In this document: in pieces, positions 5,820-10,828 of the stretch | How the letters are laid out: the number at the start of each line of letters is the position of its first letter | How positions within the stretch are numbered: position 1 is the stretch's first letter | From: Phycisphaerales bacterium | Lineage (GTDB): Bacteria > Planctomycetota > Phycisphaerae > Phycisphaerales > UBA1924 | DNA length: 64,000 nt | Direction of reading: 5' to 3' | Assembly (NCBI GenBank): GCA_020853815.1 | Contig: JADYYE010000130.1 | Coordinates: forward strand, 1-64,000 | Translations under genes and position numbers: made by a program | The notes under the pieces: generated by a model | Seen by the model: only the letters and a program-made list of their open reading frames with translations | Database searches by the model: none | Told to the model about the DNA's origin: nothing

Positions 5820-6740
5820 TTACTCCACCTTCTTGATCACGCTCACCGCTGCATACAGCGCCGCCACCTGCTCCCGCTTCACCAGCCGCGGCGGGTACGC
5901 GCTGTTCAACGGCTGCAACCTCACCAATTCATTCCCCTCCGCGTCGGTCTCGAAATACACCCGCTTCAGCGTCGTCTCGTGGTCCGGCTCCAGGCGCGCA
6001 AAGCAATCGCTCCCGTTCTTCACCACCTTCAGCGGGCTGAACACCACGATGTCCCCCTCGCGATACACCGGCTCCATCGAGTCACCCACCACCCGCGCCG
6101 CGAACGCGTCCGCGTCCCGCACGTCCGGGCAACGCACATACTGATCCGCCACCCGCGCCGGATACCCAAGGTCCGTGAACTCACGCGGATACCCCGCCGC
6201 CACGCTGTTGATCAGCGGCACCTCCAACGCCAGACTCGCCGGCGCCAGCTCGCGCGACCCGCCACCCGCCTCCGCCGCGCCCCCCACTCCCGCCGCCGCC
6301 GCGCTCTCCGGCGGCGCGATCCGATCCACCAGCCGCGACAGCTCCCCCGAGCGGTACGTCTCGTCCAGCGCGCCGCGCACCCGCCCATCCGACCCCACCG
6401 CGCTCCCACGCACGATCTCGATCAGCCGCGCCGCCAGCTTCCGACGGCTCTCCTGCGTCGAACGCAGCGACTCCATCTCCCGCTTCACCATCGCCGGCGT
6501 CTCGTCCCAACGCGCCGCGCGGATCAGCACGCCCTCGTCCATCGACAACGCCGCCGCCAGCTCGCGCAGCACCGCGTCGGGTGGCACACGCCGCTCGTTC
6601 TCCACGCCCCACACATAGCTCTTCACCTTCCCGATCCGCTCCGCCAGTTCGTCCAGCGTCAGATCAAGCTCCAGCCTCCGACGACGCACCAGCATCCCCA
6701 CCCCTTCCGTCGTCCGCGCTACGCCTTGCTCATGCACCAT
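5820..6740 (-). CDS. Self-cleaving XRE/S24 (LexA-like) transcriptional repressor
   Basis: The 306-residue protein has an XRE-type helix-turn-helix in the first 65 residues (around LDELAERIGKVKSYVWGVE), a linker, and a C-terminal S24 peptidase domain. The nucleophile is S221 in GDSM and the general base is K259 in TLKR, 38 residues apart, as in LexA and phage CI repressors. An Ala-Gly pair at 182-183 in SVAAGYP sits where LexA-type proteins cleave themselves, so the protein looks competent for RecA-stimulated autoproteolysis. The start at 6740 is the first ATG after the divergent promoter region; ATG 6695 is an alternative. The gene faces the four-gene operon that begins at 6976, and the palindromes between them are the likely operators. 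The inferred role is repression of that operon and probably of itself, relieved by DNA damage. Confidence 0.85.
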   Translation of the reverse strand: MVHEQGVARTTEGVGMLVRRRRLELDLTLDELAERIGKVKSYVWGVENERRVPPDAVLRELAAALSMDEGVLIRAARWDETPAMVKREMESLRSTQESRRKLAARLIEIVRGSAVGSDGRVRGALDETYRSGELSRLVDRIAPPESAAAAGVGGAAEAGGGSRELAPASLALEVPLINSVAAGYPREFTDLGYPARVADQYVRCPDVRDADAFAARVVGDSMEPVYREGDIVVFSPLKVVKNGSDCFARLEPDHETTLKRVYFETDAEGNELVRLQPLNSAYPPRLVKREQVAALYAAVSVIKKVE

Positions 6741-6864
6741 GTTCCACCCCCGAACAATCCCCACCCCCCCCGACTCGGGTTGCCAAACCCCGCGCGCATC
6801 ACCGCTTTGGTGCGCAATTTCGCGGTGATACCATACATTTTCCGTCCTAACACAGTCAACCCTC

Positions 6865-6952
6865 TTGCAATCAGTTCTCGAACTGGTACAAATCTGTCTC
6901 GTGTTCATTGAATCGAGAACACGAGACCGTGTCAAGTGCTGTTCACTGAACA
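6865..6952 (+). promoter_or_regulatory. Promoter with three palindromic operator candidates
   Basis: A possible -35 TTGCAA (6865-6870) and -10 TACAAA (6887-6892) are separated by 16 bp, and the spacer holds the palindrome CAGTTC-TC-GAACTG (6872-6885). Downstream are GTGTTC-N10-GAACAC (6901-6922), which also contains TTCATTGAA, and TGTTCACTGAACA (6940-6952), perfect apart from its centre. All share GTTC/GAAC half-sites. Their position between the S24 repressor and the operon makes them likely repressor-binding sites. The promoter elements are only partial matches. Confidence 0.6.
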
Positions 6953-6975
6953 CAGAATTGTGCCAGGAGGGACCG

Positions 6976-7587
6976 ATGGACCGCCACGCCGCCCGATTCG
7001 CACTGGAACTCCCGTCCCCGCAAAGACTTGAGAACGCCGCTGAGGTCGCCGATTCCGTCCGCGACGACCTCTTCGACCCGTCGCTGGACCTCGCGTTCGA
7101 CCCGGAGAATGAACAGATCGCGGCGACTCCCGGAGACCCCGCCGACCTCCGCCGAAAACGCCGCCGCGCCTTCGCCGACCGAATGCTCGAACGGGCCATC
7201 CACCTCCAGGCACCCGACCGCACCCTCATCGAAGCCTCCTTCCGCGACTCCCTCCGCGTCGTCGAGCTGGCGGCCCTGATCCACTCCCGCGCCCCCACCG
7301 ACACCCAAGTCCGCGCCATGCGACGACGCATCCGCGCGCTCGTCCGCCGACTCCTCCATCCTCGCTTCGACTTTGTCGTCCGCGCCCTGGCCAACGCCGA
7401 GGGCATCCCCCGTGCCCCGTGGTCACCGCTCCGCGCCCGCGTCGCGCGCGAGTTCTTCCTCCAGGGACGCACCATGCGCGCCATCGCCGCCGACACCCGC
7501 CAGTCCTTCTACCTCGTCCGCCGCCATCGAGACGCCGTCGAAGCCCTCTTCGACATGCACGCCAAGCGGAGCCACGCCCATGCCTGA
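6976..7587 (+). CDS. HTH protein with sigma-region-4-like segment, first gene of terminase operon
   Basis: The 203-residue protein starts at ATG 6976 behind AGGAGG at 6965-6970. It has no family I can name with certainty. Residues of about 75-130 (around TLIEASFRDSLRVVELAALI) resemble sigma-70 region 4, with an acidic helix, a turn and an Arg-rich recognition-like helix. A second HTH-like segment follows at about 155-195 (FFLQGRTMRAIAADTRQSF). The N-terminal 60 residues are acidic and low in structure. Such proteins in phages are often late-gene activators or small DNA-binding terminase partners; either would fit here, and both are inference. Its stop overlaps the start of the ABC ATPase gene by 8 nt, so translation is probably coupled. 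Expression should be controlled by the upstream palindromes and the S24 repressor. Confidence 0.65.
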   Translation: MDRHAARFALELPSPQRLENAAEVADSVRDDLFDPSLDLAFDPENEQIAATPGDPADLRRKRRRAFADRMLERAIHLQAPDRTLIEASFRDSLRVVELAALIHSRAPTDTQVRAMRRRIRALVRRLLHPRFDFVVRALANAEGIPRAPWSPLRARVAREFFLQGRTMRAIAADTRQSFYLVRRHRDAVEALFDMHAKRSHAHA

Positions 7588-8305
7588 AGCCACGCCCAAA
7601 CCAACCCGCAACTCCGGCCTCGTCCGCGTCATCCCCACCCGCGCCGCGCCCTCCGCCAATCTCCTCCGCGCCTGCGCGCCCTTCGGGTTGGCGCTCGAGC
7701 AATCCCGCGCCCGCCCGGGCCGCGAACTCATCAACCGCGCCGCCCGCGCCGTCCTCTATCGAAGCAAACCCGGCACGATCGCGCTCATCACCGGCCCATC
7801 GGGCTGCGGCAAGTCCTCCATCCTCCGCGCGCTGGCTCGCCTCACCCCCTGCACCCGCGCGCCCGCGTCCATCCCCGCTCGCCTCGCGGCCCGCGCCGTC
7901 GTCGACGTGCTCTCCGGCCCGCTCGAAGCGCGTCTCTCCGCGCTCTCCCGCGCCGGGCTCGCCGACGCCGCCCTCCTGGCCCGCACGCCCCACGAACTCT
8001 CCGAGGGTGAGCGCCATCGCCTGCTTCTGGCGCTCACGCTCGCCCGCGCCCGCCGCGGCCAACTCATCCTCATCGACGAGTTCACCTCGCCGCTCGACCG
8101 CGCCACCGCTCGCTCCGTCGCGCTCACGCTGTCGCGCTGGGCACGGCACACCAAGCTGAAACTGGTCATCGCCTCGCCCCACTCCGACCTCCTCGAATCC
8201 CTGAACCCCGACGCCCTCCTTGAGCCGGCGCTGGACGCCTCGCGCGTCCGACTCCGCTGGCGGCAGGGAGCCACGCTTGGAGACATCACCCTGGTCGACC
8301 CGTAA
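7580..8305 (+). CDS. Soluble ABC-type ATPase (COG2401-like) without membrane domain
   Basis: The 241-residue protein starts at ATG 7580 inside the end of the previous gene. It has Walker A GPSGCGKSS with K78, an ABC signature LSEGE at 140-144, and Walker B LILIDEF with D166-E167 followed by a D-loop-like SPLD. No transmembrane segment or permease gene is nearby. The conserved elements occupy one short ABC core, as in the ABC half of COG2401 proteins, which are described as an ABC-type ATPase fused to a predicted acetyltransferase. Here the acetyltransferase-like part is the next, overlapping reading frame, so the fusion appears split. A role in DNA or nucleoprotein handling rather than transport is inferred from the terminase gene in the same operon. 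The family link is from memory of motifs, not from a search. Confidence 0.8.
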   Translation: MPEATPKPTRNSGLVRVIPTRAAPSANLLRACAPFGLALEQSRARPGRELINRAARAVLYRSKPGTIALITGPSGCGKSSILRALARLTPCTRAPASIPARLAARAVVDVLSGPLEARLSALSRAGLADAALLARTPHELSEGERHRLLLALTLARARRGQLILIDEFTSPLDRATARSVALTLSRWARHTKLKLVIASPHSDLLESLNPDALLEPALDASRVRLRWRQGATLGDITLVDP

Positions 8306-9020
8306 GCCACCGCGCCTCTCCATCACGCAGGGCACGCCCGACGACTACCACGCGCTGGCGCACCGGCACTATCGCGCCGGCACGCCCGCGACCATCGCGC
8401 TCGTCCTGGTCGCGCGCGTCCTCGTCGCGCTCGCGGACGAACATCCCGAATCGCCGCCCGCCGGCGTGCTCGTCGTCTCCATGCCCACGCTCAACGCGGG
8501 CTGGCGCGACACGGCGTTCCCCGCGCTGCGCGGCCTGTCGCGCGCCGAGCGCGCCCGCTGGATCAACGAGAACATCCGTGTCATCTCGCGCGTGATCGTC
8601 GATCCAGCGCAACGCGGCACGGGGGTCGCGACGGCCCTCGTCCGCGCGTACCTCGCCCATCCGCTCACGCGTTACACCGAGGCGATCGCCGCCATGGCGC
8701 GCTGGTCGCCGTTCTTCCGCCACGCCGGCATGAAGGAACTCGCGACCCCGGTCTGCAAGCGCGACGCGGCGCTGTCGCGCGAGCTGGCGGCACTCGGCGT
8801 GCGCGCCTGGCGCTTGATCGACGCCAAGGCCGCGAGGCGCGCCGTGCGCGACGCCGAGGTGCGCCGCGCGATCGAGCGCTGGGCGCGCGGGAGCAAGGCG
8901 ACCCGCGGCGTCGTCGGCCCGGCGTGGCAACTCGCGGTGATCGCGGCCCAGCGGCTGGCCGCCCCGCCGCGCGTGTTCGTGCATGACTCCAAAGGCAAGC
9001 TCAACCCGGAGGGCAAGTGA
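8277..9020 (+). CDS. GNAT-like acetyltransferase domain protein (partner of ABC ATPase)
   Basis: The frame has no ATG near its beginning. TTG 8277, 6 nt after AGGGAG, is the preferred start and gives 247 residues overlapping the ATPase gene by 29 nt; TTG 8220 is an alternative. The centre carries ISRVIVDPAQRGTGVATALV, matching the beta4 and Q/R-x-x-G-x-G/A acetyl-CoA loop of GNAT enzymes. The C-terminal 80 residues are Arg/Ala-rich and may bind nucleic acid or protein. In COG2401 proteins a similar domain follows the ABC ATPase in one chain, so the two products probably work as a pair. A +1 frameshift in the overlap could also make the fusion. The substrate is unknown. Its stop TGA overlaps the possible ATG at 9020 of the next frame. 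Confidence 0.65.
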   Translation: METSPWSTRKPPRLSITQGTPDDYHALAHRHYRAGTPATIALVLVARVLVALADEHPESPPAGVLVVSMPTLNAGWRDTAFPALRGLSRAERARWINENIRVISRVIVDPAQRGTGVATALVRAYLAHPLTRYTEAIAAMARWSPFFRHAGMKELATPVCKRDAALSRELAALGVRAWRLIDAKAARRAVRDAEVRRAIERWARGSKATRGVVGPAWQLAVIAAQRLAAPPRVFVHDSKGKLNPEGK

Positions 9021-9082
9021 TGGAAGCGATGAACCCGAAGGACATGAAAGCGGGAACGCAGAGGAAGCCAGTGTGGCTTGGA

Positions 9083-9230
9083 GGAGAGGAAGAAGTTTCA
9101 ACGCAGAGGCCGCAGAGTTCGCAGAGAGAGCGCAGAAACGAAGAGGGGAATGGGGAGTCAGGAGTGGGAAGTGGTGAAGCGAAGACGTTGAACTCGAAGG
9201 GCTCGAAGAGATCGAAGCGCACAAAGAGAA
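9083..9230 (+). repeat. Purine-rich low-complexity spacer (CGCAGAG type)
   Basis: This stretch is made of short variations on AACGCAGAGGC, GCAGAGAGAG and TCGAAG-AAG. It resembles other spacers in the window near 10840-10975, 53463-53505, 58090-58145 and 62561-62640. It keeps the terminase frame open, but the encoded peptide is Glu/Lys/Arg/Ser-rich and unlike any terminase N-terminus. Confidence 0.5.
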
Positions 9231-9238
9231 AGCGGGAG

Positions 9239-10828
9239 ATGGCGTCGGACGCGCCGCTGGATTCGTTGGTCGAGCCCGCGTGGGACTTTCCCGCGGATCG
9301 CGAAGCACTGGCGCGATGGCTCCACGATGTGCTGGGCGTGAACATCTCGGGCGAACCGCTGGTGCGCGGGCACGCCGCCCCGCTCGACTATGTCGCGCAC
9401 TCGTTCTTCGAGGGAACTTCGTCGCTGGCCGAGGCGCTGGCGGCCGGCACGCCCGCGACCTCGACTCCGCCGTCCGATCGCGTCGTCGACGTCGTCGTGT
9501 GGGCCAACCGCGGCGGCGGCAAGACGTTTCTCGGGGCCGTCGCCACGCTGCTCGACATGATCTTCAAGCCCGGGATCGAGGTGCGCATCCTGGGCGGCTC
9601 GATGGAGCAATCGCGCCGCATGCACGAGCACCTCCGCCGGTTGCTGGCGCGCGAGGCGATGGCGGCCCTCGTCAAGGGGCGCATCACCGAGCGGCGCGTG
9701 CGGCTGGTCAACGGTTCGGAGGTTGAGCTCTTGGCGCAGTCGCAGGCCGCGGTGCGAGGAACGCGCGTGCAGAAACTCCGCTGCGACGAGGTGGAGCTGT
9801 TCGACCCCGAGGTCTTCGAGGCCGCCCAGCTCACCACGCGCTCGCGCGAAGTCACGATCATGGGCGGAAGGTCGCTCGTGGTGCGCGGCGCGGTGGAGTG
9901 CCTGTCCACGATGCATGTGCCGCACGGCGTGATGCACCGGCTGGTGGAGGAGTGCCACGACGGACGGCGGAAGCTCTTGCGCTGGGGCGTGCTCGATGTG
10001 CTGGAGCGCTGCGACGAGCGTCACGCGTGCGAAGCGCCGGGCGAGGGCGGCGACACGAAGAAGTGCCCGCTGCTCGACGAATGCAGGTCGCGATTGAAGG
10101 AACGGGCGGCGATCCACGCCGGGCACGTCTCGATCGACGACGCGATCGGGATGAAGCGGCGCGTCGGGCTCTCGACGTGGAACGCGGAGATGCTGTCGCT
10201 GCGCCCCAAGCGGAGCGACGCGGTGCTCCCCGAGTTCGACCCCGCGGTGCACGTGGTCGATTCGCTCCCGTGGGAGCTGGAGGGCGGGCCGATCACGCGC
10301 GAGTCGCTGCTCTTTGCGCTGGGCATGGACTTTGGCTATCGCGCGCCGACCGTCGTGCTGCTGGGCGCGCAGGACGCGATGGATCGCCTGTGGATCATCG
10401 ACGAGCGCGTCGCCAGCGAGCGCGTGCTCTCCGAGCACATCGCGCGGATCCGGGGAGCGGCGTGGCCGTCGTTCGAGTGGATCGGCGTCGACCCCGCGGG
10501 CAACCAGACCGACGGGCAGACGGGCAAGAGCGCGGTGCAGGTGCTGCGCCAGGAAGGGTTCGCGGTGCGCGATCGCAAGCTTCGGCTGCTGGAGGGCGTG
10601 GACATGATCCGCGGGCGGCTGCGTCCCGCGAGCGAGACCGGGGCGCGGTTGTATGTGCATCGTCGCTGCGCGACCTTGATCTCGTCGATGGAGCGGTACC
10701 ACTTCCCGATGGACAAGCCCGAGAGCAAGGAGCCGGAGAAGGACGGGAGCGACCACGCGGTGGACGCGCTGCGGTACTTGGTGCAGAACCTGGATCGGCC
10801 GGGGGCGAGGCGGCGGAGCTGGGTGTAA
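9239..10828 (+). CDS. Phage-type terminase large subunit (TerL), ATPase and nuclease
   Basis: From ATG 9239 the product has 529 residues, the usual size for TerL. The N-terminal ATPase has Walker A ANRGGGKT at 89-96 (K95) and an acidic pair D183-E184 in LRCDEVELF. The C-terminal RNase H-like nuclease shows D364 in GMDFGY and D418 in GVDPAGN, and ends with SDHAVDALRYL, which supplies the last acidic ligand. A four-Cys cluster (ERCDERHAC and KCPLLDEC) lies between the domains and may bind zinc. TerL normally packages phage DNA through a portal, but no portal, protease, capsid or tail gene follows; the next gene is an ABC exporter. The frame is open back to 9017, but the upstream 220 nt look like a low-complexity spacer. 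It closes the operon begun at 6976. Either a domesticated enzyme or a prophage remnant is possible. Confidence 0.88.
   Translation: MASDAPLDSLVEPAWDFPADREALARWLHDVLGVNISGEPLVRGHAAPLDYVAHSFFEGTSSLAEALAAGTPATSTPPSDRVVDVVVWANRGGGKTFLGAVATLLDMIFKPGIEVRILGGSMEQSRRMHEHLRRLLAREAMAALVKGRITERRVRLVNGSEVELLAQSQAAVRGTRVQKLRCDEVELFDPEVFEAAQLTTRSREVTIMGGRSLVVRGAVECLSTMHVPHGVMHRLVEECHDGRRKLLRWGVLDVLERCDERHACEAPGEGGDTKKCPLLDECRSRLKERAAIHAGHVSIDDAIGMKRRVGLSTWNAEMLSLRPKRSDAVLPEFDPAVHVVDSLPWELEGGPITRESLLFALGMDFGYRAPTVVLLGAQDAMDRLWIIDERVASERVLSEHIARIRGAAWPSFEWIGVDPAGNQTDGQTGKSAVQVLRQEGFAVRDRKLRLLEGVDMIRGRLRPASETGARLYVHRRCATLISSMERYHFPMDKPESKEPEKDGSDHAVDALRYLVQNLDRPGARRRSWV

Follow-up and report, generated by a model that had tools for sequence, protein, structure and literature searches.

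Gene transfer agents (GTAs) confirmed to date are few and come mostly from Alphaproteobacteria, and how widespread they really are has yet to be settled (PMC11841831). In Caulobacter, control of the GTA lies with RogA, a LexA-like repressor that acts through activators (PMC9632790). In the open-access literature we found no described GTA in Planctomycetota, nor any report on COG2401 that dealt with this phylum. Here we analysed a stretch of 64,000 nucleotides (the window) from a Phycisphaerales bacterium with a draft genome of 4.5 Mb (G000), one of a little-known group that lives in water and soil. We consider it likely that the window carries one half, the genes for control and packaging, of a two-locus GTA that is passed on vertically in the class Phycisphaerae.

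The locus consists of an S24 repressor gene divergent from a row of genes specifying an HTH protein, an ABC ATPase, a GNAT protein and a terminase large subunit (TerL), and all five genes were confirmed by the open reading frames of the window together with Pfam and PHROG matches (Table 1). The original prediction, made from the DNA alone, had described a self-cleaving repressor, a palindrome-rich promoter region and four collinear genes with overlaps of 8 and 29 nt, and each of these features was found. The HTH and ABC genes overlap by 8 nt, and the GNAT gene starts with a TTG at 8277 and overlaps the ABC gene by 29 nt. The repressor contains Ala182-Gly183, S221 and K259, and the Ala-Gly site with the catalytic Ser and Lys is kept in 33 of 34 S24 homologues, which places these proteins with the autocleaving S24/LexA type. 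The Walker A, Walker B and LSxG motifs are invariant among homologues of the ABC protein, and the acetyl-CoA loop (R-G-x-G) is nearly invariant among those of the GNAT protein. The HTH protein of the window itself has no profile match; homologues from other orders match Sigma70_r4 at 2.9e-10 and 1.8e-7, and the gene is co-conserved with the operon in almost all of 40 loci. Between the divergent genes lies the wTACCAWACA element, which an iterative matrix detected in the majority of the 34 S24-HTH intergenic regions compared; the sequence of the palindromes is not kept in the other genera inspected.

Table 1. Features of the control-and-packaging locus (window coordinates).
Feature	Position	Strand	Evidence and remarks
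S24/LexA-like repressor	5820..6740	-	306 aa; HTH and peptidase S24; PF00717 5.5e-18, HTH_31
Promoter-region element ATACCATACATTTTCC, consensus wTACCAWACAtwwacC	6828..6843	+	Candidate operator or promoter element
Palindromes, candidate repressor sites	6872..6952		CAGTTCtcGAACTG 6872-6885; TCTCGTGTTC..GAACACGAGA 6897-6926; TGTTCAcTGAACA 6940-6952
HTH protein	6976..7587	+	203 aa; homologues are double sigma-70-region-4-like HTH proteins
ABC ATPase lacking a transmembrane domain, COG2401-like N-terminal half	7580..8305	+	PF00005 1.4e-10; phrog_11143 5.8e-24; phrog_293 1.6e-21
GNAT-like acetyltransferase, COG2401-like C-terminal half	8277..9020	+	phrog_886 1.5e-13
Probable non-coding stretch	9021..9238		Third-position G+C; place of ParB-like/TerS-like genes in other families
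Terminase large subunit (probable start)	9239..10828 (ORF from 9017)	+	PF17289 2.9e-8; phrog_5653 9e-13

TerL contains a Walker A motif (residues 162-170), the DE pair (257-258), motif III (297-298), and the nuclease residues D438, D492 and D579/D583; a motif of four Cys residues (C332, C338, C350, C356) links the two domains. With few exceptions, these ATPase, nuclease and Cys residues are invariant in 40 relatives, in agreement with the intact ATPase and nuclease residues noted in the original prediction. Because third-position G+C is 0.66 in 9021-9238 (about the first 222 bases of the ORF) versus 0.92 in the remainder, and homology to TerL starts only at about residue 92 of the ORF, the true start is probably the ATG at 9239 and not 9017. 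The bases ahead of it are probably non-coding filler where other families have ParB and TerS, clusters c5 and c4, which were found in the f3-f6 loci. The filler is a CGCAGAG-type low-complexity sequence between GNAT and TerL, and its open frame probably arose by chance.

To define how widely the locus is kept, we searched for TerL and found it in 113 of 150 relatives, nearly always in one copy. The best 80 matches in a public genome collection were nearly all labelled as Phycisphaerales or other Planctomycetota. In a scan of the phylum, the ten genomes sampled from other Phycisphaerae orders all matched, at about 1e-141 or better, and beyond these same-class genomes similarity fell to 1e-65. 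Comparison of 40 loci of 10-18 kb each showed the order S24 / HTH - ABC - GNAT - TerL in almost all, and outside the window's family two extra genes precede TerL, one ParB-like (phrog_723, 9e-14) and one for a small protein with weak TerS matches. The genes downstream of TerL are host genes, some of them common to several families. No portal gene adjoins TerL in any of the 40 mapped loci, which is not the arrangement of an ordinary prophage. In almost all of these loci the five genes stay together without an adjacent portal, a check that the original prediction had called for; the outcomes that would have told against that prediction, loci always lying inside complete prophages or a gene order that is not conserved, did not occur. 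At the same-class loci L318 and L322, TerL stands alone near dnaA, without ABC or GNAT within about 9 kb.

The prediction had also held that the operon lacks capsid genes. This is true of the 64-kb window, which contains no head genes, and not of the genome, since portal, scaffold and capsid genes form another conserved operon at a locus of their own, usually tens of kb off. An SPP1-type portal (PF05133) occurs once per genome in 20 of the 21 genomes that bear the module, G000 included, versus 2 of 14 controls. Next to it lies an SU10-type major capsid gene (PF17236, 3e-88), found in 106 of the 150 relatives and in none of the 14 controls, and one head-locus member has a scaffold match (PF06810, 1e-8). 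The head operon is compact and comprises portal, scaffold, SU10-type major capsid, a protein of ~215 aa and small genes of connector-like or tail-like type, some with weak tail-collar-like and DNA_circ_N-like matches; the locus also has an adaptor gene and, in some families, lipoprotein-like and LamG-like genes after the capsid. Across 40 mapped genomes the portal was present in all and the capsid in 39 (interrupted in four of these), and no terminase was found at the head locus. Contigs C199 and C172 carry the head genes of G000. In G241 the portal ORF is short and is not adjoined by a capsid cluster. The identified neighbours at both loci are host genes (ferredoxin, phosphomannomutase and aminopeptidase, for example), and no recognised replication or integration genes were found at either locus among the flanking ORFs identified. 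Purifying selection is strong on TerL (dN/dS 0.11-0.18, with 0.18 against the same genus), portal (0.13-0.17) and capsid (0.04-0.10).

Neither a tail sheath nor a tape-measure match above the cut-off was found in any of the 21 module-bearing genomes, and the best weak match, a tail protein in G241, was assigned by inference to another prophage. No lysis gene was recognised. The particle may have a short tail, no tail at all, or one that has diverged too far. Other head genes were considered as partners of TerL and rejected. HK97-type portals (PF04860; 9 of 61 relatives, 5 of the 21 module-bearing genomes) and capsids (PF05065; 7 of 61) behave as patchy or multicopy prophages, and lambda-type portals are likewise patchy or multicopy and prophage-like. 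The latter reach up to seven copies per genome (in G005, G023, G100, G101, G108, G112 and others), a sign that a different kind of prophage is abundant in Phycisphaerales.

In 11 of the 106 capsid-bearing genomes, G000 included, the capsid gene is split at one and the same point; in G000 its parts lie on C199 and C172 (L331, L361), and in G001, a member of the same genus, the gene is intact. We read six of the insertions in full (L354-L358 and L360, from G115, G039, G020, G088, G005 and G089). Each is ~11 kb long, and most are bounded by inverted repeats of the CCCGTCTGA / TCAGACGGG type. They encode a large serine recombinase, an AAA protein and a protease-capsid fusion (Mu gpT-like), with restriction-modification-type cargo in at least four of the six and a trypsin-like protease in one. 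The insertion looks like a satellite that disables the particle by occupying the capsid gene.

Several lines of evidence indicate that the packaging and head loci are complementary, linked and co-inherited. TerL and capsid occur together in 100 of the 150 relatives and are both missing from 31; 13 have TerL only and 6 capsid only (Fisher p=5e-16, relatedness ignored). With regard to linkage, the median distance between TerL and the head genes is 43 kb in the 42 genomes with both on one contig, 34 of which have them within 100 kb, and the combined p for closeness in single-contig genomes is 1e-8, again with relatedness ignored. The trees of TerL, portal and capsid follow host families, each grouping the window's family as one, and are correlated (Mantel r 0.74-0.79; 0.56, 0.24 and 0.67 inside the window's family). 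The stretch between the loci contained no gene conserved in at least three of the compared genomes. One genome on a single contig, G109, has TerL without the SU10 capsid and also without the SPP1 portal.

We found no operator shared by the packaging and head loci. The wTACCAWACA element was rejected for this role, being present upstream of the packaging operon and not convincingly upstream of portals. A palindrome upstream of the G000 portal, CTTTGGTGCGCACCAAAG, seemed to recur in the S24-HTH region but was likewise rejected as an operator, because the genome has 56 copies of it, mostly in pairs about 158 bp apart, which marks it as a dispersed repeat. The repeat is MITE-like (e.g. C199:2905-3080, C83:4573 and C256:98520-98695 in G000), and the window has a 12-base partial match to it at 6805-6816.

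The nearest full-length viral TerLs are just 30-34% identical to the window type, and in two viral contigs a TerL of about 30% identity is directly followed by a portal. Salmonella phage SSU5 and Pseudomonas phage phiK7B1 have consecutive ParB-like, ABC and GNAT genes, and in phiK7B1 this row continues with TerL and then the portal. Since the phiK7B1 row and these two viral TerLs run on into a portal, the packaging operon has the look of an entry module from a phage packaging region, severed just ahead of the portal. In the IMG/VR contigs L031-L044 the ABC and GNAT domains are fused (COG2401-like), and each of the contigs read, L033, L040 and L042, has a ParB-like gene immediately upstream.

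From a packaging half and a capsid half that are inherited together, we infer that these bacteria probably make virus-like particles carrying their own DNA. The S24 repressor would silence the packaging operon until DNA damage activates RecA, which would trigger repressor self-cleavage at A182-G183; induction by damage is probable from the self-cleaving type of the repressor, as seen in its conserved autocleavage residues. The likely activator, comparable to those through which RogA acts, is the sigma-r4-like HTH protein. Heads would assemble with portal and scaffold, and TerL would thread host DNA into them and cut it, helped by the ABC and GNAT proteins and, where retained, by TerS and ParB-like proteins; our guess is that ABC, GNAT and ParB prepare or select the DNA end. 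To judge from the genes present, portal, scaffold, capsid and TerL should suffice for a DNA-filled head. Such a particle would hardly propagate itself, because neither locus has recognised replication or integration genes or contains the other locus, and this fits the definition of a GTA-like element. The packaging and structural genes appear to have been kept, as indicated by the conservation of TerL, portal, scaffold and capsid and by dN/dS below 0.2 for TerL, portal and capsid; inheritance is vertical and apart from viral homologues, as judged from the trees and the low viral TerL identity; and the genes lie at two loci outside any one prophage.

The packaging operon might instead have been domesticated alone, as a DNA-translocating or DNA-cutting machine for repair or chromosome processing, with the head locus a separate matter. 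The 13 genomes with TerL and no capsid, one of them a single contig, would fit such a machine, as would the solitary TerL of some genomes (within the 9 kb inspected) and the missing shared operator. However, the two loci strongly co-occur, are linked on the chromosome and have correlated trees, and the head locus has no terminase and the packaging locus no portal; all of this speaks against such a machine, which we regard as unlikely. Somewhat more doubtful still is that the capsid operon forms an encapsulin-like nanocompartment, either free of DNA or specialised, or else a particle that kills, and not a GTA. The failure to find a tail sheath or tape measure and the lipoprotein-like and LamG-like genes after the capsid in some families are compatible with this, but unless DNA is packaged it is hard to explain why purifying selection has kept a portal, a scaffold and a TerL whose nuclease and ATPase residues are invariant.

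Every part of the system has phage homologues, as would be expected if leftovers of an ordinary prophage happened to be common in the clade or if prophages had integrated repeatedly and independently. Nevertheless, single copy number, constant gene order and common host neighbours across families, together with intact active sites, dN/dS <0.2 and family-level monophyly, make this origin very improbable, and the real prophages of these genomes (lambda portal, HK97 portal and capsid) are patchy or multicopy. Phage satellites also combine S24 control with a terminase, and a defence or satellite island that hijacks incoming phages would look similar in this respect; it is scarcely credible, given that no integrase or cargo was seen at either locus and that inheritance is vertical across the class. 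The ABC protein matches defence models just via general ATPase similarity, and the defence module entertained in the original prediction found no support. Its suggestion of a domesticated, conserved locus other than an ordinary prophage was supported by order- and class-wide synteny, single copy and purifying selection. The TerL tree that it called for recovers the window's family and correlates with the portal and capsid trees, and of its readings gene transfer is the best.

The two-locus system is accordingly GTA-like and of apparently separate origin. A fuller proposal, that it is a class-wide GTA which arose independently, would be the first in Planctomycetota, is under SOS control, has a short tail or none, is aided in packaging by ParB, ABC and GNAT, and is parasitised at a fixed capsid site by a defence-carrying element, is tentative, and all of its parts together are rather less than probable. 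If true, GTA systems arose and persisted beyond the known groups, here as complementary split operons across a class of Planctomycetota, which would explain why phage-finders miss them, and the unexplained ABC-GNAT pair would gain a place beside DNA packaging.

The Phycisphaerae system resembles RcGTA and the Caulobacter GTA (Rhodogtaviriformidae and relatives; PMC9662315, PMC9632790) in its phage-derived head and packaging genes, vertical inheritance and scattered loci, and the Caulobacter GTA also in having a LexA-like repressor, although RogA lacks some key autocleavage residues, and the Phycisphaerae repressor keeps its own. In contrast to the HK97-type portal and capsid of RcGTA, the conserved genes here are an SPP1-type portal (PF05133) and an SU10-type capsid (PF17236), which sets the system outside Rhodogtaviriformidae. 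It further differs from these GTAs in its host phylum, in that a tail was not found, and in having two complementary single operons with ABC, GNAT and ParB in the packaging one. FpGTA of Faecalibacterium (PMC12946183) is similar in being GTA-like and podovirus-like with two operons about 125 kb apart; it belongs to another phylum and has packaging evidence, whereas the Phycisphaerae system is known from genes alone. SSU5-like phage-plasmids and Nickievirus phages share the consecutive ParB-like, ABC and GNAT genes, upstream of TerL in phiK7B1, but SSU5 and phiK7B1 are complete viruses, the latter with a portal adjoining TerL, whereas here there is no virus genome and the head genes lie elsewhere. 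Finally, COG2401-type ABC ATPase-acetyltransferases have the same two domains and, in the viral contigs read, a ParB-like neighbour, whereas in the window the two domains are specified by separate, overlapping genes.
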